This document shows positions 1 through 11,498 of a stretch of 64,000 nucleotides of DNA, in pieces; the first letter of the stretch is position 1; every line of letters starts with the position of its first letter. The notes beneath the pieces were generated by a model. It had not been told where the DNA came from. It was given only the letters and a program-made list of their open reading frames with translations, and made no database searches. This stretch comes from Haloarcula marismortui ATCC 43049 (GTDB lineage: Archaea > Halobacteriota > Halobacteria > Halobacteriales > Haloarculaceae): NCBI RefSeq assembly GCF_000011085.1, contig NC_006394.1, forward strand, positions 1 to 64,000, written 5' to 3'. Both the position numbers and the translations under genes were made by a program.

Positions 1-157
1 GTGTATACAGACAGTTGACTTAGTCATTTGGTATTTTAAAGAGGAGTTTAGTGTAACAGGTCTGGAGTTCGACTATGATATGCCCCTCTGGCCAATCTGA
101 CATCCAATCCGCCAACTATTAGCCATCTCTTTGTAGCTCCGATCAGACTCGGACAAT

Positions 158-721
158 ATGCCGAAGCCCGATATCGAAGTCTTCGACGACGGCGACGCCT
201 ATCCATATTCGTCGCATATCCGCGTAGCAGGTACAGAACTCCAGCTGGGCGATCTTCTTCTCGTGTTTGATTCTCCCGATGACAATAGTGTCAGCTTCTT
301 CGAGCGTGTCTATGGGTTCACTTGGCCGGGAATCATCACTCACGTCGTCGATGGGCCTGTTCCTGCTGAGTTTCACAATTTCGAGGACTTTGCTGCGGAT
401 CTCGACAGCGGGAAGATCGCGGTCGCCAGCAAACGCGAACAAACGAGCTTCTTCGTCGACGAAGACACCGTCCGGACTATCACGCTCTACCGATACCAGT
501 ACCAGGGCGGGTGGCAGCCGATCGTGATTGATGAGCGACGAGATCCACTTGAGAACACCCCCTTCAATGAATCAATTACTCTCTATGAGGATGGAGAGCA
601 GGTAATTGAAGAACTACTCGGGATGAGTTCCCCTGAAGAGAAGCAGGAGGTTGAGCATATCCGCGAATTTCTGCGGTCTGCTGGTTATCAACTAGATCCA
701 GTCCCTGATTCAGACGAATAA
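158..721 (+). CDS. Hypothetical acidic protein
   Basis: A 187-residue soluble acidic protein with no recognised domain. It has no signal peptide or membrane segment. It is rich in aromatic and acidic residues and ends in a short predicted helical tail. It converges on the short Argonaute gene, with 17 bases between the two stops, so it is probably not part of that operon. The ATG used is the first in frame. Codons here are less GC-rich than from about 7 kb onward, as in the rest of this block. Function unknown. Confidence 0.6.
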   Translation: MPKPDIEVFDDGDAYPYSSHIRVAGTELQLGDLLLVFDSPDDNSVSFFERVYGFTWPGIITHVVDGPVPAEFHNFEDFAADLDSGKIAVASKREQTSFFVDEDTVRTITLYRYQYQGGWQPIVIDERRDPLENTPFNESITLYEDGEQVIEELLGMSSPEEKQEVEHIREFLRSAGYQLDPVPDSDE

Positions 722-738
722 GCCTCTCACTCACCGAT

Positions 739-2157
739 TCACATATAGTAGAAATACTGTGGCCGAACCTCTGAAATGGACTCAGTATCTACTTCGGATA
801 GGATTGTACCGACACGCTTTGCAACACTCACGGTTGCTGGCATCCGAATTGCGTAGTCCGATGTATTCCAGTCGAGTTTTGTGAAAAAGAGAATCTCCTT
901 ACAGATCTCTAACGAAGGTGTCTCACAAATCTCGTCAGGTCGGATCTCAATCGGTGATGGTACTCCACTCCCCTGATAGGTCGTCTCTTCCGGGACATAT
1001 CCGGATGTGTAGAGATAGTGGACGTCGTCATCAGGGACGCTCAGGAGGGTTCCCCGCATGGCGGGATAATCCGTAGGTGGGAACAACCTGACCTTTGGCC
1101 GCCTACGAACCCAGACTAGATCTAAATCGCGAACACCGTCTGTGGCATCAAGCAACCCTTCACGTTCTTCTTCCCAGAAGACAGATGGCTTATGAAGGAC
1201 GAACCGGCTGGGACGTGTCCCTTTCTGAGCTTCGTAGTATTCCAGAATCTGCTCACCTACCTGTCTAGCCGCCTCATATGAGAGGTGGGGAGACCCATTC
1301 TCGTCCTCGGTGATATCCGGGAGTGGATCGCTCTGAAGGATAATATGGTCCCGTCCGTGAAAGACGTGAGCAAGAGCAGCTCGAATTACATCATCTCCTT
1401 CGTCTCGCTCTCTGTAGAACGAGAGCCCTGCGTAGCAGTGCCCATCTTCGATCTGTCGAGTTTTCCAGGGATGCCCTCGTTGAGACTTGTATAGAAGTCC
1501 AACTGTGAGATTCCAGGCCCGAGATGCTCGCTGTCGGTCAGTACGGATCGCAAGTGTGGATGGCTTAATCAGTTGTGTGGGGATTCGAGCCTCCATCCCG
1601 ATCAGTTTGATTCGATTTCGAAGATCAGAACCTTCCGACTGGATTCGCGCATGGTCTTGGTTCTCAGGAGTACACGCGTCCATCACTTCTTGCGGAATAC
1701 AGACGATGATTGCGTTCGGCTGAACCGAATCCCGTTCGATTATCTCTATGTCTTTCTGCACTAGCTTCAGGAATCGCTCCATCCGATCTCTGGGGGTCGA
1801 TTTACTCGTAACAGATTGGATGTCTCGTCGACGAATTTGGCGTCTCCAGCCCTTTTTTGCATTAATAGAGAGATTGAGCGGGGAACTCTTACCTAGCCCG
1901 GGATAGGGAACCTGCCACGGATTATCACTTGTTCCTGGATGGATCCCGACCTCCATATCATGAAGTAGTTCGGTCAACCGGCGGATTGAATCTCGATCGC
2001 CGATAATCCCGAGTTTGATTGTATGGTGTCCTTCCTCATAGAGGCGTGGACCATATCTGATAAGGCCTCGTTTGGGAGAGGTTTCAGTACCTCCTTCAAA
2101 CTGAATCTCTGGCTCCTCGAGGTGACGAAGCGTGAACGGGGTATCTTGGGGCGTCAT
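739..2157 (-). CDS. Short prokaryotic Argonaute (MID-PIWI)
   Basis: A 472-residue protein with the size and architecture of short prokaryotic Argonautes, which lack N and PAZ domains. The MID region (about 120-235) carries family-typical stretches: IPTQLI at 192-197, WNLTVGLLYK at 215-224 and PW at 230-231. The PIWI region (about 236-472) includes CYAGLSFY (241-248), where active enzymes have a catalytic Asp, FVLHK (319-323), FFTKLDWNTS (424-433) and a hydrophobic aromatic C-terminus. The catalytic tetrad appears lost, so the protein should bind guide and target without slicing. It overlaps the upstream nuclease-APAZ gene by ATGA, which implies one transcript and a heterodimeric complex. By analogy with SPARTA/SPARSA/SPARDA systems it would sense invading nucleic acid and activate its partner. 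Family call is strong; the activation mechanism is inference. Confidence 0.88.
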   Translation of the reverse strand: MTPQDTPFTLRHLEEPEIQFEGGTETSPKRGLIRYGPRLYEEGHHTIKLGIIGDRDSIRRLTELLHDMEVGIHPGTSDNPWQVPYPGLGKSSPLNLSINAKKGWRRQIRRRDIQSVTSKSTPRDRMERFLKLVQKDIEIIERDSVQPNAIIVCIPQEVMDACTPENQDHARIQSEGSDLRNRIKLIGMEARIPTQLIKPSTLAIRTDRQRASRAWNLTVGLLYKSQRGHPWKTRQIEDGHCYAGLSFYRERDEGDDVIRAALAHVFHGRDHIILQSDPLPDITEDENGSPHLSYEAARQVGEQILEYYEAQKGTRPSRFVLHKPSVFWEEEREGLLDATDGVRDLDLVWVRRRPKVRLFPPTDYPAMRGTLLSVPDDDVHYLYTSGYVPEETTYQGSGVPSPIEIRPDEICETPSLEICKEILFFTKLDWNTSDYAIRMPATVSVAKRVGTILSEVDTESISEVRPQYFYYM

Positions 2158-3578
2158 TGTTCAATTCCACCTGTGTTTTCGAGATCAGAAGCTGACTCGA
2201 TGAGCTCATCACGTTCGTCTCCGTCTTTGGGCGGGCGGACATTGAGGGACAGCGAGTCAACTCTGGTTACTTCGAGTTCCTTTACGACGGGTATCTTTTC
2301 ACCCATAAACCGGTCAAGCTGGGTCTGATCCGACATCAGCAACTCTTCCCAGACACGCAGTTGGCGGTCGTACTTACTATTCTGGGCGTGGAAACGATTT
2401 GGCGAGAAGTCGTTTTGGAGCCGTGATTTACGCTCGCCTGTTACAGGTCGACGACCATCTGAAGTGAAAACCTGTGTGGGTAGCAGAACGTAGTAGTATT
2501 CTCCCGCATAGCGCCGTACTCGTACTTTGACACCGCGGTGGATGACATCGGGGTAGGAGTCTAACTCCTTTGCAACCCATGATCGACCTAGTTTTCGTTC
2601 GGTACCGTGCTGTCTGCGATCTAGTTCCGGGTATACGGTTGTTCCTTTCTCACGGTCGATGAGACAATCGTTGTCTCTTGCAACGAGAGTGAAAATCCCC
2701 CTGAGAAGGGATCTTACGATGTTTTCACGCTCCTCTTCTTGAGCCCGCGTTCGGAGGAACTCCTCGAACTCTCGCGTTTCGAAACGGTCCTCGTGTATGT
2801 AATGACGAGTAGACCCCGGAAGATGGTCCGGATGAACGAGCGAATATAATTTCCGCTCGTGAAGCTTGATGGGGAACGCTTCGTTGTTGTAATTATAGAC
2901 GCGAGCAGATTCGGCTTCCTCTGTCGTCTCTATGATGTACAGTGTCTCTGGGTAGCGGGTTACCTGAAACAGATTCGTCGCATATTCTGTTTCCTCAGAA
3001 ACCGGTTCATACGAATGAAGATATGGTTCGTACTGGAACCGTTCTGTTTTCTCGAGCTGATGAGCTTGTTGACGGAGGTCGTCGTATGTACCTACGAAAA
3101 CATGGGTATCGATAGCAAAATCTCGGAACTCATCTACATCAGTATCATCTAGCCGATCTACGACCTCATCGTTAACGCTGTCTTTGAGCTTTTCGTAGAA
3201 GTCGACCAGTTTCTGATTATCGGTGACATCACGATCGAACAGGGCTTTCCAGAGCTGGTCATTAGAAAGTGTCTCCGTAAAAATATAGAAATCAAACCGG
3301 TGGGGTTGGGGTTGTTTGATATATTCGAGGAAATACCGGGCCAATTCGTCTCTAAAATCGTTCGGGCTGAGGCCTGTGGAATACGCTTTTGCCTCGGCTA
3401 CCACTTTATCGCCCGTAGCTTTGTTCACAAACTGAATATCGTCAAGCGTAGAGTGGAAGGCTGAATCCCGTTCGACCATATAATTCAGCCCTTCCATGTA
3501 CTCGATGACGACTTCCTTATAGTCCTCCCCGCGTCTCGCCGTCCCTTCCCGCTCTTTATATAGATTGTAGATGGGCAC
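2154..3578 (-). CDS. PD-(D/E)XK nuclease-like protein fused to APAZ domain
   Basis: A 474-residue protein and the first gene of the Argonaute operon. The N-terminus looks like a restriction-endonuclease fold: RRGEDY near 15-20, then D46/D47 and E62-A-K64, a plausible D...ExK active site. The C-terminal half fits an APAZ domain, the partner surface of short Argonautes: HRGVKVRVRR (347-356), a YYYVLLP strand, FTSDG (371-375), N400 and W410 before a helical tail. In described systems the effector is Sir2, TIR, Mrr-like or DUF4365; here the nuclease subtype is uncertain. It probably degrades nucleic acid when the Argonaute finds a target. It overlaps the downstream gene by four bases. A separate role as a conventional restriction enzyme is unlikely given the APAZ half. 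Confidence 0.82.
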   Translation of the reverse strand: MPIYNLYKEREGTARRGEDYKEVVIEYMEGLNYMVERDSAFHSTLDDIQFVNKATGDKVVAEAKAYSTGLSPNDFRDELARYFLEYIKQPQPHRFDFYIFTETLSNDQLWKALFDRDVTDNQKLVDFYEKLKDSVNDEVVDRLDDTDVDEFRDFAIDTHVFVGTYDDLRQQAHQLEKTERFQYEPYLHSYEPVSEETEYATNLFQVTRYPETLYIIETTEEAESARVYNYNNEAFPIKLHERKLYSLVHPDHLPGSTRHYIHEDRFETREFEEFLRTRAQEEERENIVRSLLRGIFTLVARDNDCLIDREKGTTVYPELDRRQHGTERKLGRSWVAKELDSYPDVIHRGVKVRVRRYAGEYYYVLLPTQVFTSDGRRPVTGERKSRLQNDFSPNRFHAQNSKYDRQLRVWEELLMSDQTQLDRFMGEKIPVVKELEVTRVDSLSLNVRPPKDGDERDELIESASDLENTGGIEQ

Positions 3579-3658
3579 GTTGTATCTCGTTACAAGGAAG
3601 TCTCGTGTGAATTACTTTTCCCTCAGTCGTTGGATAGTCTACTGGGATCCGACGGTAC

Positions 3659-3690
3659 TTCTATAAAACGAGCGGTATATATTGGAGATA
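3659..3690 (+). promoter_or_regulatory. TATA-like element and ribosome binding site for the PIN module
   Basis: CTATAAAACG begins near 3661 and GGAG sits at 3684-3687, seven bases before the ATG at 3691. This supports the ATG rather than the TTG at 3682 as the start. The region also separates the divergent Argonaute operon from the PIN pair. Confidence 0.4.
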
Positions 3691-4539
3691 ATGAATCGCG
3701 AGGACTTGGGAACGACTCTGCGCCTCCTCAATCGCGAACGTGGGGCCGCGGATGCGTTACCGAAAAAGTCGCTTCACAAGCTCCTCTACCGTATTGACGT
3801 CAAATCTGCCGAGCGAAATCTGGATATCTCGATCCCGTATTATTGGTATCTCTTTGGTACTGTCTCTCCAGCCACGCCCTCGACTGTCCCCTCAGCGAGT
3901 ATTAATGAGCCCGGACTTGAAGATCGCCTACGTTCTGTTGTCTCAGAGGCTCTCTCTGAATATTACGAACATGGATTAGAATGGCTCACAGACCGAATGT
4001 ATGATGATGCGCCGTATCAGGTTCAGCGGGATTTTCGGGAGTTAGATAAGAAAATACGAACGTTACATACGGAGTACCACGATTTCTTTGAGGTTGACCC
4101 AAGCAGAGAATCAGTACTCAGCTCCGTCCACGACACTTTTGAATCATTTCCAAACGACCGATTTCCGGAGTACGATCGACCACTAATCAAGTGGTATAAC
4201 GCGGTCACTCGAGAACTCCATTCTCATTCTCCTGATCCCTCCAGATTGATGACGGTGAATGTAACGTTCTGGCGTATCTTTGCACTCGAGCTTGCTCAAC
4301 GGCATGCCCAGGGAATGTCTCCGGAAGAGGTTCGTGGGAACCTCGGTATAACCTCGTTTGAGGAGGCTCGGAGTTCTGCGATTCAGAAACTTGACGAATT
4401 CGAAGAGGAAGACCTTGATGCGAAATTTTCTGGATTACCGACTGAACTCGAATCTGAACGGAGTGCAGCTGACGAACTTGTTGCTCCGATTCTTGAACGC
4501 CGGGGAATTGCGCACGAAGATCTCCATCCGGGCCAATGA
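3691..4539 (+). CDS. Hypothetical protein, first gene of a PIN-domain pair
   Basis: A protein of about 282 residues, mostly helical and charged, with no domain I can name. The ATG at 3691 follows a GGAG and is preferred over an in-frame TTG at 3682. It overlaps the following PIN gene by ATGA, the usual coupling of an antitoxin-like gene with its toxin. Near residues 210-225 a segment resembles a short helix-turn-helix (GMSPEEVRGNLGITSFEEA), which would allow autoregulation. It is far longer than typical VapB antitoxins, so this could also be an RNA-binding partner or a regulatory subunit. Antitoxin assignment is inference from gene order. Confidence 0.55.
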   Translation: MNREDLGTTLRLLNRERGAADALPKKSLHKLLYRIDVKSAERNLDISIPYYWYLFGTVSPATPSTVPSASINEPGLEDRLRSVVSEALSEYYEHGLEWLTDRMYDDAPYQVQRDFRELDKKIRTLHTEYHDFFEVDPSRESVLSSVHDTFESFPNDRFPEYDRPLIKWYNAVTRELHSHSPDPSRLMTVNVTFWRIFALELAQRHAQGMSPEEVRGNLGITSFEEARSSAIQKLDEFEEEDLDAKFSGLPTELESERSAADELVAPILERRGIAHEDLHPGQ

Positions 4540-5333
4540 CTCGATACTTCGTAGACACTAACGTCCTCATTGGACTCACGTTTTCTCACGATCGGTGGGC
4601 CGTAGAAGCAGAGCGTATCCTAGACGGTCATAACACACTCTTCACGAGTGAGTTTGTGATCTACGAGTATTGCAGCCGTCCACAAGGAGCGCCTCGAGTT
4701 GTGTCTGACCCCGATCAGCTACAGGTTGACCCTGACGATACCGATGGCGTGTTCGGGACCGTTCTTGAAGACTTTCAAGAGAACGTCGAGGATAATATCC
4801 CAATGTACAACCGAGAAATCGATTTACAGCGCTACGATGGGCTTTCCTTTGAGAGGATCTTAGAGATTTTCTTCGATAATATTGAGGTTCGAAGTCAGGC
4901 CAAGCCACACTTTGTTCGACACTTCCAGGACTACTTCTCCTCGCGTGAAATCACCCCACGGAATGCGAAACGGTGTGTCGAAGATCTTCGAGATCGTGTT
5001 CTCCACGACGCAAAGGAGCGGAAAGACGCACTAATGGATGCTGTCCACGTCATGTCGTCAACTTATGACGATCAGGAGCGCGCTCGCGGTCTAGTCAAGG
5101 AGCACATCGGAATTCGGGAGTCCCGGATTCCTCCAGTAGACTCTCAGTGGCTTCTTGACGCAATAGGGCTTGCAGAACGCGATGTGCTTCAGCGTATTGT
5201 GACCGGAGATAAGAAAGACATTGTCCGATATCAGCAACAGCTGACGTCATTATTTGATGTTTCAATCCTCTATATTTTGGATGAGTTTCATACGCGTTCC
5301 CAAGTCGGTCAGGATTCACACGAGATCCTCTGA
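4536..5333 (+). CDS. PIN-domain ribonuclease-like protein
   Basis: A 265-residue protein whose N-terminus, YFVDTNVLIG, carries the first catalytic Asp (D7) of the PIN fold. A conserved-looking acidic residue follows in FVIYEYCSR (about 40-48), and DALMDAVHVMSS fits the later acidic cluster. Usual VapC toxins are about 130 residues; this one has an extra C-terminal region ending in a predicted amphipathic segment. PIN proteins cleave RNA with metal ions at an acidic centre. Overlap with the preceding gene suggests a toxin-antitoxin-like unit. Lying next to, and divergent from, the Argonaute operon, it may be part of the same defence island. Confidence 0.7.
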   Translation: MTRYFVDTNVLIGLTFSHDRWAVEAERILDGHNTLFTSEFVIYEYCSRPQGAPRVVSDPDQLQVDPDDTDGVFGTVLEDFQENVEDNIPMYNREIDLQRYDGLSFERILEIFFDNIEVRSQAKPHFVRHFQDYFSSREITPRNAKRCVEDLRDRVLHDAKERKDALMDAVHVMSSTYDDQERARGLVKEHIGIRESRIPPVDSQWLLDAIGLAERDVLQRIVTGDKKDIVRYQQQLTSLFDVSILYILDEFHTRSQVGQDSHEIL

Positions 5334-5424
5334 TTACGCAACGACTGGTAAGAAGGTACACTGTCGCCGGAGCTGAGGTCCACTCTGACAGGAAGTACTT
5401 ATGGGTGCCCTCCGGACGAAGCGT

Positions 5425-5991
5425 ATGGGACTCTTTGAGACCTTATTTAGCTCATCCACTGGGGATACTGTCCCTCAGGCACAGCAACCGAGTCAGCACG
5501 AAATCTTCCCCGAGGACAAGTACAATGTCGCATACGCTGTAGCCGCTCGGCGTGAAGAAATTCGGGCGTTAGAACACCTTCTAGAAGCGGATCAGACCTC
5601 ACCTACCGCCCTGGAGGCTGAGCCTTTCCTTCAGGATATAATCGAAGAGATGGAGCGGGATCGGGAATACTCCCTCCGCCTTCGCACCTCTGGGGAGGAG
5701 CTCGTCGACGATCTCCGTGAACTCATAGAGCATTGGGACAATCAGGTAAATGAGCAGATAGGGACGATTTGGTGGCCTATCGGAGCAGATACGAGGTTCA
5801 GGTTGTACCTCCATTATCTGGAACTTCGTGCTGACGCGGAGGATGACCAATTTTCGTTCCCGGAGTCTGCTGGACAGGTTCACACTCTCGTCCAGCGTGG
5901 TCTCAGTGCAATAGACGATGATGACGACTCGAAGCTCGCTGTAGTCCACAAGCGAGACATTCCTTGGGAAGAACCAGTTGAGGACAGCTGA
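5425..5991 (+). CDS. Hypothetical acidic helical protein
   Basis: A 188-residue protein starting MGLFETLF; an alternative ATG lies at 5401. It is highly acidic, predicted largely helical, and has a run of aspartates near the C-terminus. No signal peptide or membrane segment is visible. No family recognised. It follows the PIN gene in the same direction after about 90 bases and may or may not share its transcript. Confidence 0.5.
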   Translation: MGLFETLFSSSTGDTVPQAQQPSQHEIFPEDKYNVAYAVAARREEIRALEHLLEADQTSPTALEAEPFLQDIIEEMERDREYSLRLRTSGEELVDDLRELIEHWDNQVNEQIGTIWWPIGADTRFRLYLHYLELRADAEDDQFSFPESAGQVHTLVQRGLSAIDDDDDSKLAVVHKRDIPWEEPVEDS

Positions 5992-6048
5992 TCCAGTTCG
6001 CTCCTTTGCAAAGAGACCGATTAATTGTATCCAGTATCAAACCCAGCT

Positions 6049-6483
6049 ATGGTAGAAATCTCAGACTCCCTGTGTTCCCTGTTCACTGCGAAAATTAAGA
6101 AGGAGAATGGCACATTCGTCATCGAGATTCCTTCGAGTGAGATCAAGCATGGGGCGCTGACAGTTGATGAAACGTACCGCATCGCTCTTCTTGATTCATC
6201 CTCCGAAGCGGAATCAACATCCCCACAGAGCCCACGGCATCCCGCCTCTCAGGGGAGCACGAGCCATGATTCATCTGGTCCTCCCGTTGATGAGGGAGAA
6301 GTGCGCGACGTGACAATCGAAACCGTCGGTGATCAAGGAGACGGTATTGCGAAAGTCGAACGGGGGTACGTCGTGATCGTTCCCGGCGCTCAGCCCGACG
6401 ACGAGCCAACAGTCGAAATCGAACAAGTTCAGGAGAACGTTGCGTTTGCGAGCATTGTCGATAGCGATCCGCGAGCACTCTAA
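6049..6483 (+). CDS. TRAM domain protein
   Basis: About 144 residues. The C-terminal 60 residues are a TRAM domain: DVTIETVGDQGDGIAKVERG, then YVVIVPGAQPDD and VENVAFASIV-like strands, a small OB-like RNA-binding barrel also fused to tRNA methylthiotransferases. The N-terminus (CSLFTAKIKKENGTFVIEIP) matches the usual start of haloarchaeal stand-alone TRAM proteins, with a Ser/Pro-rich linker between. Such proteins are thought to act as RNA chaperones. The ATG at 6049 is preferred over a TTG at 6025, which would add unrelated residues. Haloarchaea normally keep several chromosomal copies; this one has a longer low-complexity linker. Confidence 0.8.
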   Translation: MVEISDSLCSLFTAKIKKENGTFVIEIPSSEIKHGALTVDETYRIALLDSSSEAESTSPQSPRHPASQGSTSHDSSGPPVDEGEVRDVTIETVGDQGDGIAKVERGYVVIVPGAQPDDEPTVEIEQVQENVAFASIVDSDPRAL

Positions 6484-6606
6484 CCCATTCCCCTTCTGTG
6501 GATCAGTCTTCTTCTCGGTAAACCATCGGTGTGAGAAGGCTCCGTTCGCGTTTGTCTGATGGAGGTGGTTCTGAAAGTCACGTCACGTTTTCTTCACGCG
6601 CTCGCG

Positions 6607-6912
6607 ATGGCACAACCTTCCAAAGCCGAAATACAATCTATGACAAAGGAACCGATTGAGGTACTCGACGACCTGGCCAACCAGGTCGCCGATGAGTTTG
6701 AGGCGTATAGGCAGCCGGACGAATTCAAGGATGTCTCGCTCGTGATTGAGAACAGCGATGAGGAACATCCGACGCTGATCGTCCACGTTGATAGAGAGGA
6801 CGCGGAGTCCCTTGCCGACCGTATTGATGAGTTCCTCTGCGAGCATGGTGCTCGTACTGAACGGGAACGACACTCAGCTACGGATGTCCGTGTATTAGCG
6901 ACGGTCGACTGA
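6607..6912 (+). CDS. Hypothetical small acidic protein
   Basis: About 101 residues; other in-frame ATGs occur at 6559 and 6640 and the true start is unclear. The protein is acidic with an alternating strand/helix pattern (VSLVIEN, TLIVHVDRED, SLADRIDEFL). No family recognised. It stands alone on the plus strand before the convergent AbiE-like operon. Confidence 0.45.
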   Translation: MAQPSKAEIQSMTKEPIEVLDDLANQVADEFEAYRQPDEFKDVSLVIENSDEEHPTLIVHVDREDAESLADRIDEFLCEHGARTERERHSATDVRVLATVD

Positions 6913-6996
6913 CACCGCCCCTCCAATTTTTTGACTTACTGTAAACACCGCTGAAGGACCCTATCTTCATTTCCGATCAAGGGGGTCCCGACCGCT

Positions 6997-7692
6997 TCAG
7001 CTCAGGTGGTTAATCTGTACAGACAGATACTCTTGGAGAGCGGTGACCGTTTCTTCTGAGACTGCTGAGGCCCCGAAGTCACTCCGATACCCGTGCTTGA
7101 GTTCATCGCTCTCTATGATCTCCAGTCCACGCTCAAGCTGCTCCCGTAGCGCATCGTCGTCCCCTCGACGAAGGTGAGGCGTGACAGCGTCGAGATCGAT
7201 TTCTTCTGCTACTGCCAGGACGTCCCGGAGGTCCGTTTCACGGCCGCTATGGAGCTTTGCCGCGACGAGGACTGCTCCATCGATGACTCTGGCTGTGGTC
7301 GTCACTGTACCTCCGCTCACCTCCTGTTGGTGGCTGTGGTCGTACAGGTAGTCGAATGACCACTGTGCCTCCGTCTGGCGACACCCGAGTCCGTTTACCA
7401 GGAGATCGAAGCCGATCGGCTGCTGCGGCGTGAGCCGCTTCTCGTACTCGATTACTTCGGTGTCGTAGAACCATTCTTTGGCGTGGCTGTCCGTTTTCTC
7501 GAATCCCCGCTGTTCGAGGAACTCGACGAAGTCAGCCTTTGAGTCCGGCGCGACGACGATATCGAGGTCCGTGGAGAAGCGAGCATTGAACGCTGAGACA
7601 GCGTAGCCGCCAACAAGAACGTACTCGTGGCCCTCTTGGGTGAGCTCTTCGAGCAGTTCGATGAGCGCGTCACTTCGGTTGTTGAAGCTCAT
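6997..7692 (-). CDS. AbiEii-like nucleotidyltransferase (putative toxin)
   Basis: A 231-residue nucleotidyltransferase-fold protein. The active-site signature is visible: VLVGGYAVSAF (G28-G29) followed by STDLDIVV with D42 and D44. The start MSFNNRSDAL at 7692 is chosen because it overlaps the upstream gene by ATGA; the longer frame upstream is a shadow. In AbiE type systems this fold is the toxin that modifies tRNA or other targets, paired with a winged-helix AbiEi-like repressor, which is what precedes it here. Substrate cannot be told from the sequence. A housekeeping nucleotidyltransferase is possible but less likely given the pair. Confidence 0.72.
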   Translation of the reverse strand: MSFNNRSDALIELLEELTQEGHEYVLVGGYAVSAFNARFSTDLDIVVAPDSKADFVEFLEQRGFEKTDSHAKEWFYDTEVIEYEKRLTPQQPIGFDLLVNGLGCRQTEAQWSFDYLYDHSHQQEVSGGTVTTTARVIDGAVLVAAKLHSGRETDLRDVLAVAEEIDLDAVTPHLRRGDDDALREQLERGLEIIESDELKHGYRSDFGASAVSEETVTALQEYLSVQINHLS

Positions 7693-8363
7693 GGCTGCGC
7701 CCGTTCGGTCTCTCGATACGTGACGCCGAGATCGAGGTCCTCGTACATCCGGTCGAGCATCGCCAGCCCCGACTGGAACTGGGCGTAGTTCTCGCGCATA
7801 TACTCGATTGTCTCTGCTCTCGGGATCACCGGGTACCCTTCGACATGCTCGATATCGAGTAACGCGCGTGGCTCGAGGACGATCTGCAGCGGTCCGTCCA
7901 ACTCGTCTCGGGGCTGTCGCTCGAATGCGGTCGGGAGGTCGAACCACTCGAAAAATGTCTCCCAGGCGTCGACGTCATGCTCACGAACAGCGAGGAACAG
8001 TGGATAGTCGTCGGGCTCGCGACCGACCTGGTAGCCGCCCTGGGTCCACACGTAGACGGCGTCGATCCGTGTGAACGCGAACGGCCAGTCACCGAATTGT
8101 GGGATGACGTACGTTTCCTCGATGGAGGGTGGACTGACGCCAGCGCTGGCAGCGACGAGCTCTCGTGCTGCGTCTCTCACGTGTTCGTCGACGACTGAGA
8201 GGCCGTCGTCATAGGTGACGTAGCCTGCGTCTTCGAGTCGGTTAACGGCCTGTCTCACCGTCTCGTACGGCGTGTGGAGGTGCTGGGCGACACGACGGAT
8301 GGAGTCACCACTCTCGATCGCGAGGATGACCTGCGCCGCGGTGTCATCGAGTACCTCGTACAT
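7689..8363 (-). CDS. Winged-helix AbiEi-like regulator/antitoxin
   Basis: A 224-residue protein. Residues about 14-55 form a helix-turn-helix (DSIRRVAQHLHTPYETVRQA) followed by a wing. The remainder resembles a sensor or antitoxin domain, with YVIPQFGDWPFAFTRID and an effector-like C-terminal half. It sits directly upstream of the nucleotidyltransferase with a four-base overlap, as expected for an autoregulated type IV-like toxin-antitoxin pair. Assignment as antitoxin is from fold and gene order. Confidence 0.62.
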   Translation of the reverse strand: MYEVLDDTAAQVILAIESGDSIRRVAQHLHTPYETVRQAVNRLEDAGYVTYDDGLSVVDEHVRDAARELVAASAGVSPPSIEETYVIPQFGDWPFAFTRIDAVYVWTQGGYQVGREPDDYPLFLAVREHDVDAWETFFEWFDLPTAFERQPRDELDGPLQIVLEPRALLDIEHVEGYPVIPRAETIEYMRENYAQFQSGLAMLDRMYEDLDLGVTYRETERAQP

Positions 8364-8475
8364 CTGGTGGTTACCAATAATCCGGTAACAGTTAAAAGTC
8401 TTACTCGAATGGCCATGAACCCACTATCTCTCCATACTCTCGAAGGTAGTCCTGATTCCCGCTGAAAACACGGGG

Positions 8476-8525
8476 AACGACTATAACGAATTCAACGAAC
8501 AAAACGAACAGAACGAGAAAAACGA
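8476..8525. repeat. Phased AACGANNNN array I
   Basis: AACGA begins at 8476, 8485, 8494, 8503, 8512 and 8521, exactly nine bases apart. The spacing and position upstream of parA point to a protein-binding array (centromere or operator), not a coding repeat. Confidence 0.85.
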
Positions 8526-8578
8526 ATGAATTGAACGCATTCTGGGGAACGAACTGGCACCCTCTACTCGATGAACAA

Positions 8579-8655
8579 AACGAAGAAAACGAACGTAACG
8601 AACAGAACGAATGAGTTGATGGCAACGAGTGCGTTTGCTTCAACGAGTGTAACGA
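8579..8655. repeat. Phased AACGANNNN array II
   Basis: AACGA begins at 8579, 8588, 8597, 8606, 8624, 8642 and 8651, all on one 9-bp register with two degenerate slots (8615, 8633). It is out of register with array I (103 bases apart). Confidence 0.85.
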
Positions 8656-8687
8656 ACAGTTGGTTTTAACACTGTAGTAATCCTCTC

Positions 8688-8764
8688 ACCGAGTGAAACA
8701 CCCTCACCGAACGCACCGAACTAAACGACCATAACGAACGAAACGAACACAACGAGAGAAACGA
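8688..8764. repeat. Phased A(A/C)CGA array III, abutting parA
   Basis: ACCGA at 8688, 8706 and 8715, then AACGA at 8724, 8733, 8742, 8751 and 8760, on one 9-bp register that runs to within six bases of the parA start at 8770. It likely overlaps the parA promoter, so occupancy would also regulate the operon. Confidence 0.85.
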
Positions 8765-8769
8765 AGATA

Positions 8770-9588
8770 ATGACCGACACCAATACCGCACGAATCACGG
8801 TGGCGAATCAGAAGGGAGGCGCGGGGAAGACGACCGACGTCATTCATACAGGCGGCGCACTCTCTGCCAGAGGCCACGACGTCCTCCTGGTCGATATCGA
8901 CTACCACGGAGGACTCACCTGCTCGCTTGGCTACAACGACCTGTACTACGATACCGACCGCACAACGCTGTTCGACGTCCTCGACTTCGATCAGATGGAG
9001 TCGGTGAACGACATCATCGTCGAGCACGAGGAATTCGACATCCTCCCCGCCAGTGAGAAGCTCGCGAACAACAAGAACATCCAGACGTTGCTTGAGGCGC
9101 CGAAGAGTCGCGAGCGTTTGGAGATGACACTCGACGAACTCGACAATGACTACGACTACATCATCGTCGACACGCCGCCATCCCTGAACGTTCTCACCGA
9201 CAACGCCCTCGTCGCGACCGGCAACGTCGTCATCCCCGTCATCCCCGAGAAGCTCAACGCCAACAGCCTCCAAATTTTCGCAAAGCAGCTGAGCTCCCTC
9301 GAACAGGCGTACGGAGACATCAATCGGCTCGCGATTGTCTGTAACCGTGTCGAGCAGAACGCCGAACACCGCGACACCATCGAGGAGATCAAGTCGGCGT
9401 ACTCCCTTCCAGTGTTCGAGATCCCGAAGCGGACTGACCTCTCCCAGTCGATCGGCGAGGGGGTGTCCGTCTTCGGCTTCGGCAAGGAGAACCAGCGCGT
9501 CGAGGATGCACGCGACTTGTTCAACGAGATCGCCGACCTGTTCGACGAGACGTTCGAGAAGACCGCGCCTGAGGAGGTGAAAGCATGA
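8770..9588 (+). CDS. parA: ParA-family partition ATPase
   Basis: A 272-residue ParA/Soj/MinD-superfamily ATPase. The deviant Walker A motif KGGAGKTT is at residues 15-22, Walker A' is LLVDIDYHGGLT (normally D-P-Q-G-N), and Walker B is YIIVDTPPS. It would drive segregation of the replicon by ATP-dependent DNA binding. The three phased repeat arrays lie directly upstream and the partner gene overlaps by ATGA downstream. The atypical switch residues (Tyr-His-Gly-Gly in place of Pro-Gln-Gly) are shared by some haloarchaeal plasmid ParAs. Role in partition is well supported by context. Confidence 0.88.
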   Translation: MTDTNTARITVANQKGGAGKTTDVIHTGGALSARGHDVLLVDIDYHGGLTCSLGYNDLYYDTDRTTLFDVLDFDQMESVNDIIVEHEEFDILPASEKLANNKNIQTLLEAPKSRERLEMTLDELDNDYDYIIVDTPPSLNVLTDNALVATGNVVIPVIPEKLNANSLQIFAKQLSSLEQAYGDINRLAIVCNRVEQNAEHRDTIEEIKSAYSLPVFEIPKRTDLSQSIGEGVSVFGFGKENQRVEDARDLFNEIADLFDETFEKTAPEEVKA

Positions 9589-10265: not shown

Positions 10266-11498
10266 ATGCCTGACCGAGCGCTTTCGACGCCGCTCGACGA
10301 CAGCTTCGAGCGCTACCTCCAAGACAAGGGGAAAGGCCGGGGCGGCGGCGGTGGGAACTATCGACGTAACGCTGCACGCGAGCTCGAACGGTTCGCCGAG
10401 TGGGCCGCCGGCGACCGCGGCGCCGACGACTGGACCGGGATCGCCGACGACGTCGGCCGCGAGCCGACCTTCGACGATCTCGACGAACGCGTGTTCCGGG
10501 AGTACGCCCGACATCTCGGTGGAGATCGGGGACTCAAGCAGAACACAGTACAAACCTATTACCGCTATATCTCTGCGTGGTGTGGCTGGTGCGTCAACGA
10601 GGGATATCTTGAGGCCCACTACGCGCAGCGAGCGAGTGCGATGGCGCCGCTGCCGGAGGACGACGGCCGCAAGCCCGGCGACCAGCAGGCCTGGACGTCT
10701 GAACAGCGCCACGCCCTCACCCGCCACGTCGACGAACGGGCCCGCGACGCTGTCGAGGCGTACACGACACTCCCAGAGGATACTGACCCCCTCGACAAGC
10801 AGCGAGCACGCTACGCGGCGCTGAAGGCGACTCGTGACCGGGCTCTGGTGTTCGTTCTCGCGTACACAGCTGTCCGCGTCGGCGAACTGCTCCGGGATCC
10901 GAACGACCCGCGCCGGCGCGGCGTCCGCTGGGAGGACCTCTCGCTCGACGACGGGAGCATGGACGTCTACCGGAAGAAACAGCAGTGGGACGCCGCCAGT
11001 CTTCCCGATCCGGTGATCTCGCCGCTCCGGAGCTATCGCCAGCTGATGGATCCGCCGACGGAGCGCTGGCCGGTGTTTCCGACGTTTGACCAACGGACGC
11101 TCGCAGAGCTCGTCCGGGAAGAGCTAGCCGAACGAGGGGAACGCCCAGAAGCAATCACTAAACGCCGTGCGGAGTACGCTCGCGACCTGCTGCTGGCGCT
11201 CGATGTGGACATTCGGCCGCCGTCGATCACGACGGACGGCGCACGGTCGATTCTCCAACGACTCTCGGAGGCCGCGGAGATCGACATCGACCATCCGAAA
11301 CACGATTATCTTGCTCCGCACGGTGGCCGTCGTGGCATGGGCGAGGTTCTGGTCCGGGCATTCGGATATACTGTGGCGGCCCGATATCTCGATAATTCTG
11401 AGGAGATGGTTCGTGAGCGGTACTCGCATATCGAGGCTGGTGAGTTAGGTGATGTCGCTACTGAGGCCCTTGAGGAGATCGATAGTGTACCGCAGTAA
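10266..11498 (+). CDS. Tyrosine recombinase/integrase
   Basis: A 410-residue tyrosine recombinase. The N-terminal 125 residues form a SAM-like core-binding domain (tandem helices to AWCGWCVNEGYLEAHY). Catalytic residues visible: R204 in YTAVRVGELLR, HGGR (H352, R355) and the nucleophile Y386 in RERYSHI. Haloarchaeal integrases of this type resolve dimers or integrate elements at tRNA genes. It lies just after the partition genes, suggesting replicon dimer resolution or integration. A purine-rich GGAGGG precedes the ATG. The second conserved His/Trp before the nucleophile is replaced by Asp-Asn, as in several archaeal integrases. Confidence 0.88.
   Translation: MPDRALSTPLDDSFERYLQDKGKGRGGGGGNYRRNAARELERFAEWAAGDRGADDWTGIADDVGREPTFDDLDERVFREYARHLGGDRGLKQNTVQTYYRYISAWCGWCVNEGYLEAHYAQRASAMAPLPEDDGRKPGDQQAWTSEQRHALTRHVDERARDAVEAYTTLPEDTDPLDKQRARYAALKATRDRALVFVLAYTAVRVGELLRDPNDPRRRGVRWEDLSLDDGSMDVYRKKQQWDAASLPDPVISPLRSYRQLMDPPTERWPVFPTFDQRTLAELVREELAERGERPEAITKRRAEYARDLLLALDVDIRPPSITTDGARSILQRLSEAAEIDIDHPKHDYLAPHGGRRGMGEVLVRAFGYTVAARYLDNSEEMVRERYSHIEAGELGDVATEALEEIDSVPQ

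Follow-up and report, generated by a model that had tools for sequence, protein, structure and literature searches.

A conserved divergent P285-PIN gene pair accompanies a short Argonaute operon in haloarchaea

The window analysed here, a stretch of 64,000 nucleotides from Haloarcula marismortui ATCC 43049 (contig NC_006394.1, positions 1 to 64,000), is the beginning of a 155,300-bp plasmid contig and carries near its start a cassette of four genes. A short prokaryotic Argonaute (pAgo) and its REase-APAZ partner lie on one strand and, divergent from them, stand a gene that we call P285 and a PIN-domain gene (Table 1). The plasmid is pHMA155 (the first 16 kb of the window were compared and are 100% identical), and all four genes are annotated 'hypothetical protein' in its record. 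The Argonaute arm belongs to a catalogued family; the real novelty is the four-gene architecture with its conserved P285-PIN pair. A first-pass annotation had described a haloarchaeal operon that pairs a short Argonaute with a nuclease-APAZ protein, and that description stands, down to the exact coordinates of its two overlapping open reading frames (ORFs), but its two-gene view missed the conserved divergent pair at 3691-5333.

Table 1. Features of the four-gene cassette, in coordinates of the window
Feature	Position	Strand	Description
Short Argonaute, MID-PIWI	739-2157	minus	472 aa, ATG start; identified by ORF, PADLOC and solved short Argonautes; predicted catalytically inactive
REase-APAZ protein	2154-3578	minus	474 aa, GTG start; ORF call and PADLOC Aga_REase_Archaea
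Nuclease half, PD-(D/E)XK	3024-3578	minus	aa 1-185; D47, E62, K64 invariant
APAZ half	2196-3011	minus	aa 190-461; profile search and structure match
Divergent intergenic region	3579-3690		103 bp between ORFs as called
P285	3691-4539	plus	282 aa from ATG 3691 (285 aa from TTG 3682); unnamed family; N-terminal ~110 aa Panacea-like, helical C-terminus
PIN-domain protein	4536-5333	plus	265 aa; Pfam PIN match just under the cut-off; D7, E44, D202, D225 conserved; start overlaps P285 end

In the Argonaute operon the REase-APAZ gene is upstream and the PIWI gene downstream, with a 4-base overlap, ATGA. The 472-aa PIWI protein matches the PADLOC pAgo model PDLC02392 (1e-216) and, among solved short Argonautes, 9om4_B of SPARHA (2.6e-55) and 9qbl_B of SPARDA (4.6e-51). 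As its residues 13-472 are collinear with the 471-aa 9om4_B, the protein has no N or PAZ domain, which bears out the earlier description of it as MID-PIWI. Compared with four long haloarchaeal Argonautes that keep both aspartates (one of the four has AFD for GID), it has lost the Asp of GID (GLS) and that of HRDG (HKPS), these being the two positions of the DEDX tetrad that the comparison resolves. With both catalytic aspartates lost the protein should not cleave, and we class it as a short pAgo (class I) with a predicted inactive PIWI domain. A reading as a long catalytic Argonaute is rejected on this loss and because its relatives are short pAgos.

The 474-aa partner matches PADLOC Aga_REase_Archaea (PDLC02417; 3.4e-171 over 28-466). 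A family profile built from 18 rows matches, with its C-terminal half, the APAZ chains of SPARHA and SPARDA structures at E values from 9e-11 to 1.5e-8 (9om4_A, 8.8e-11; 9qbl_A, 3.9e-10). In an AlphaFold2 model with a mean predicted local distance difference test score (pLDDT) of 72.8, the APAZ half superposes on SPARDA 9qbq_C with a Z score of 19.2, a root-mean-square deviation (rmsd) of 4.7 and 246 aligned residues. A placement outside the APAZ fold is rejected by these profile and structure matches. In the nuclease half, fold order and structure match agree with a PD-(D/E)XK domain fused to APAZ, and the intact D47/E62/K64 triad is invariant in both 18-row alignments, in the haloarchaeal rows and likewise in five rows from outside the named haloarchaea. 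The matches are far beyond chance, and both halves come out as the first pass had described them. Pfam, searched with an E limit of 1, gave no DUF4365 or SMEK match to the protein.

The divergent pair has no such ready counterpart in the databases. A TATAAAA element, read by eye, lies at 3662-3668, 23-29 nt upstream of the P285 ATG. Searches with P285 in Pfam, PADLOC, NCBIfam and PDB sequences returned nothing credible, single-member matches alone: eIF-5_eIF-2B (0.0038), Cas12u3 of PADLOC (0.028, in 1 of 16 members), GrpE (0.0072) and a best PDB match at 0.31. The N-terminal ~110 residues resemble six Panacea-like haloarchaeal proteins with an hhalign probability of 89-91% when wide alignments are used, and none of 60 column shuffles of each wide alignment scored as high (best shuffle, 0.8%). 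The predicted P285 model has a pLDDT of 83.6; its helical-bundle matches, with Z up to 10.2, were not used, since such bundles reach that score without kinship. The PIN protein is the best of the 9 in 16 PIN members that match PF01850 (E limit 5), and its profile found nothing credible among PDB sequences. Its acidic motif is intact: of 16 rows, all have D202 and D225, while D7 and E44 are each kept in 15, with E in place of D7 in one row and D in place of E44 in one row; the catalytic residues are presumably among these. In the pHMA155 record the PIN gene begins at 11199; the conserved start, at 11034, is 165 bp further upstream, so that the gene as annotated lacks the N-terminal PIN motif.

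The four genes are conserved together. We searched 391 haloarchaeal genomes with a single REase-APAZ protein and 34 matched, which with the window gives 35 loci; eight of them are near-copies of the window cassette, so the loci are not independent. In 33 of the 35 the APAZ ORF reaches 400 aa or more, and among these P285 is full-length and divergent in 33 of 33, PIN is full-length in 32 and PIWI in 30. The other two loci are decayed (L068) or hold an APAZ fragment alone (L069). Approached from P285, the same genomes contain 36 strong places (E 6e-54 or better), of which 34 adjoin REase-APAZ, one of these decayed, and two adjoin a split Argonaute. Seen from PIWI the link is looser: a PIWI profile matches in 39 of the 391 genomes, long Argonautes and remnants included. 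A second, named collection comprises 48 loci, 25 of them haloarchaeal and overlapping in species with the first survey; P285 and PIN ORFs, some truncated (L151, L156), occur in 23 of these 25, and the two exceptions are L160, which is cut off by a contig edge, and L177, in which APAZ is truncated. Across 72,556 plasmid records, P285 and PIN fall in the same 18 (E limit 1e-3), which make up 18 of the 20 records with REase-APAZ (E limit 1e-5); the remaining two match residues 332-462 only.

Two further comparisons used sets of 14 loci, 13 of them common to both, that were picked partly for intact genes and include some close to each other. The four cassette genes were shared by 14 of 14; beyond these, no ORF of 120 aa or longer was common to four or more loci (BLASTP E 1e-10). 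The four genes also diverge together, the protein distance matrices correlating with r of 0.90-0.97 and 0 of 2000 permutations per pair reaching as high. Among 10-11 near-identical copies, the ratio of nonsynonymous to synonymous polymorphism (pN/pS) was 0.054 for PIWI, 0.061 for APAZ, 0.130 for P285 and 0.122 for PIN, so that all four genes are under purifying selection. The co-travel of P285 and PIN with the Argonaute arm across distant haloarchaea points to a candidate four-gene defence system hitherto undescribed.

A block at 118-8405 of the window, which holds the cassette, is about 95-97% identical on plasmids of Natrinema, Haloplanus, Halorussus and Halosimplex, and from 535 on in Halorarius, a pattern that suggests it has recently passed from genus to genus. 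Two cassette copies each are present on a Halosimplex plasmid and on a Haloferacaceae plasmid.

To place the Argonaute arm, we built a PIWI tree of short pAgos from 53 rows, of which 41 remained once rows more than 95% identical had been dropped; six partial or repeat loci, a Nostoc plasmid locus and the long Argonautes were left out, and each partner was typed from the plasmid annotation or, by eye, from the start of the protein. The haloarchaeal rows form one clade (support 100/99) with those of one Pacearchaeota and one Nanoarchaeia genome, a Thermoplasmatales metagenome-assembled genome (MAG) on a long branch, a Levybacteria MAG and one viral contig. This clade stands apart from a DUF4365 and SMEK clade (100/99), an HNH clade (99/98), the SIR2 rows and the TIR row; inside it, the haloarchaeal rows and the viral contig make one set (95/91) whose inner order is unsettled. 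On the strength of this separate clade the REase-APAZ/PIWI family is a distinct branch. The first pass had put it forward as a strong candidate for an uncharacterised branch, which is not supported in that form, for PADLOC 2023 already has a dedicated model and the branch is not confined to haloarchaea. We likewise reject the idea that the Argonaute arm is private to haloarchaea, as it is present in DPANN, Thermoplasmatales, the Levybacteria MAG and the viral contig; the Argonaute-linked form of P285-PIN does appear to be private to them among the relatives seen.

A phage-borne origin was tried: one IMG/VR contig (L198) carries the Argonaute arm, PIWI has no match in 50,697 phage records, and no P285 relative was confirmed on viral contigs. 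On that contig REase-APAZ and PIWI (3630-9431) lie near a gene with a TIR-like start, read by eye. Two other stretches hold PIWI genes of the family. One (L146, 7899-15442) has a full-length PIWI, with APAZ, P285 and PIN not detected, followed by large ATPase-like and methylase-like genes that by eye recall Hma; in the other (L142, 6887-9813) a 555-aa open frame encodes the PIWI, APAZ and P285 were not detected, and a small gene nearby has, by eye, a PIN-like start.

Among the closest known systems, SPARDA (NbaSPARDA and XauSPARDA, DREN/DUF4365-APAZ) is alike in design, with an inactive MID-PIWI protein and a PD-(D/E)XK-APAZ partner in one operon and a shared catalytic D..(E/Q)xK pattern; in NbaSPARDA the nuclease residues are D41, Q60 and K62, according to the excerpted text of PMC12205087. 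Both halves of the 474-aa protein align in order to SPARDA 9qcc_A (Z 19.4, 332 residues) at an rmsd of 21.9, so that its domains sit differently. Unlike in SPARDA, the haloarchaeal PIWI clade is separate from the DUF4365/SMEK rows, the nuclease half falls outside the family profile's sequence match to SPARDA chains, and a divergent P285-PIN pair accompanies the Argonaute. P285 and PIN had no match better than E 0.4 in 10 bacterial plasmid loci, eight of which have a DUF4365, SMEK or SIR2 partner. Because the DUF4365/SMEK match is missing and the PIWI clade is separate, we file the system as SPARDA-like and not as SPARDA proper. SPARHA (HNH-APAZ, 9om4) is the top PDB sequence match for both Argonaute-arm proteins, but has an HNH partner instead of PD-(D/E)XK and its own PIWI clade. 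The window's two proteins are the family of PADLOC Aga_REase_Archaea (PDLC02417) and pAgo PDLC02392; the PADLOC models, however, cover the Argonaute and REase-APAZ only, and PADLOC gave P285 no credible match and the window PIN no match at all. APAP, too, is an Argonaute defence in haloarchaea (PMC11442185, excerpted text), but it pairs a long catalytic long-A Argonaute with PLD, whereas the window system is short, predicted inactive and accompanied by REase-APAZ and P285-PIN.

The divergent pair itself recalls Panacea (PanA) antitoxins and VapC-type PIN toxins, with a P285 N-terminus that is Panacea-like by profile and a PIN gene downstream whose start overlaps. It differs in that P285 has a large helical C-terminal part and none of 16 members matches Pfam Panacea (PF13274) at E up to 5, and in that PIN proteins of the window type are mostly 245-273 aa, longer than a typical VapC. 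P285-PIN is a two-gene unit elsewhere too. Of 23 weaker P285 places in haloarchaea, 13 distant loci were fetched; in 9 of them the profile detects a PIN next door, and two more were recognised by eye, and in other classes of the phylum PIN stands beside P285 in 6 of 8 loci; the pair is also found where no Argonaute was detected, on chromosomes and in those classes. At two split Argonaute loci (L130, 2941-8391; L131, 3120-8509) P285-PIN precedes on the same strand two proteins, one of 331-332 aa and a PIWI protein of 436 aa, which match consecutive segments of a class II pAgo model, and a 432-438-aa protein of unassigned kind is also present. A distant P285-PIN pair occupies 7608-9258 of L134, between drmE and drmA of a DISARM locus.

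We read the cassette as a four-gene plasmid-borne defence system that would couple a SPARDA-like guide-dependent nuclease to a toxin-antitoxin-like PIN module, and on balance we hold this to be somewhat probable; that the Argonaute arm alone would act as such a nuclease is, by analogy, highly probable. By homology to SPARDA, whose mechanism we take from the excerpted text of PMC12205087, REase-APAZ and the inactive MID-PIWI protein may form a heterodimer in which APAZ and MID-PIWI stand in for a long Argonaute. Such a heterodimer would take up a small guide, which is probably RNA, recognise invader DNA complementary to it and assemble; assembly would switch on the PD-(D/E)XK domain for non-specific degradation of DNA, and perhaps RNA, ending in cell death or dormancy, or in clearance of the invader. 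From its genomic context, the divergent operon may be a toxin-antitoxin-like pair coupled to the Argonaute arm, with the PIN RNase restrained by the Panacea-like P285. The pair would most likely serve as a guard, or as a second effector directed at RNA, and would be set free by failure or triggering of the Argonaute arm; alternatively or additionally, it may regulate the nuclease arm so as to keep it safe.

Several observations speak against this four-gene reading. The closest non-haloarchaeal relatives (L169, L172, L176, L198 and L180) have REase-APAZ and PIWI with no detectable P285-PIN, and the pair is therefore not universally required for the Argonaute arm. Within haloarchaea, PIWI ORFs of the family occur in L142 and L146, and remnants in L143-L145, with no APAZ, P285 or PIN detectable in the stretches read. 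The pN/pS of P285 and PIN is about twice that of PIWI and APAZ, and the choice of the 14 loci noted above softens the neighbour and co-divergence results. The domain assignments have their own weak points: the window PIN protein scores just under the Pfam PIN cut-off (9.8e-5, 23.4 bits against 23.6), the Panacea match depends on alignment breadth and drops to an hhalign probability of 26% with a narrow 16-row P285 alignment, and Foldseek found no confident match for the P285 model in the PDB (best E 0.91). P285 is split in two in L068 beside an intact PIN of 253 aa, which is unexpected for a strict antitoxin, and is shortened at its 3' end in L155, where PIN is again intact. The breakage signature of a toxin-antitoxin pair, in which the toxin may break and the antitoxin may not, was looked for across loci and not clearly seen; in L151, close to a contig end, P285 is kept and PIN is cut to 124 aa.

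In the chief alternative, a two-gene SPARDA-like system is joined by P285-PIN as an independent addiction hitchhiker that stabilises the plasmid or cassette and has no mechanistic tie to the Argonaute. P285-PIN alone on chromosomes and in other classes, Argonaute-arm relatives outside haloarchaea that do without the pair, and the many P285-PIN copies on plasmids are all as this account would have them. A hitchhiker would, however, be expected to be lost or swapped for other modules, and no other neighbour recurs, while P285 is associated with all 33 near-full-length REase-APAZ loci and divergent in every one. Among the aligned loci the association persists even where APAZ is as little as 22% identical to that of the window, and it is seen both on plasmids and on chromosomes or contigs of several megabases. 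We regard this alternative as rather unlikely.

Less likely still is a role for PIN as a dedicated guide-maker that cuts invader transcripts into small RNAs for MID-PIWI, with P285 as adaptor or specificity factor. The near-obligate neighbourhood in haloarchaea, the conserved acidic residues of the PIN-like protein and the second Argonaute type with P285-PIN on one strand (L130, L131) are consistent with it, but the pair occurs without a detected Argonaute and inside DISARM, and the closest non-haloarchaeal Argonaute relatives manage without it. That plasmids merely carry along a decayed or non-functional cassette is very improbable: several copies are interrupted or truncated (L042, L044, L156, L161, L162, L177), but that of the window is intact, purifying selection acts on each of the four genes, and conservation extends to the nuclease and PIN motifs.

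The four-gene reading can be taken further. P285-PIN might be a new archaeal immune module that joins a Panacea-like sensor to a PIN RNase and is obligately wired to the haloarchaeal short Argonaute as a dual-effector system (DNA nuclease and RNase) in which one arm senses the failure or activation of the other, and plugged independently into split Argonaute and DISARM loci. We put this forward tentatively and think it doubtful as it stands. The occurrence of the pair in DISARM and beside a split Argonaute does suggest that it may mark other archaeal defence loci. That a PIN nuclease is encoded in a near-invariant divergent operon suggests an RNase partner that one short-Argonaute branch needs or uses, and two questions thereby become testable: the source of short-Argonaute guides, and the guarding of a lethal collateral nuclease. 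Tractable hosts are at hand in Haloarcula and Haloferax.

The excerpted text of the main pAgo survey (PMC6299218) describes short Argonautes, in fused and operon forms, as systems of one or two proteins. That text defines operon membership by same-strand genes only, and for this reason the P285-PIN pair was easy to miss. In the open-licence literature, with supplementary tables outside the scope of the search and some articles represented in part, we found no description of P285 or PIN with a short Argonaute, and no experimental study of the Argonaute family catalogued in PADLOC turned up there.

Further genes flank the cassette. Across the circle, to the left of window position 1, an HmaC-like ATPase (1.7e-86; L032, 12771-16064, on pHMA155) adjoins it, and in the Natrinema copy (L033, 16694-19421) an HmaB-like DUF1156 methylase (3.6e-58) follows the HmaC-like ATPase; the cassette therefore sits beside an Hma-type system. 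On the other side, at 6997-8363 of the window, a nucleotidyltransferase that is weakly AbiEii-like (1e-4) overlaps a helix-turn-helix gene and is kept in the same plasmid block, forming a possible further toxin-antitoxin pair.

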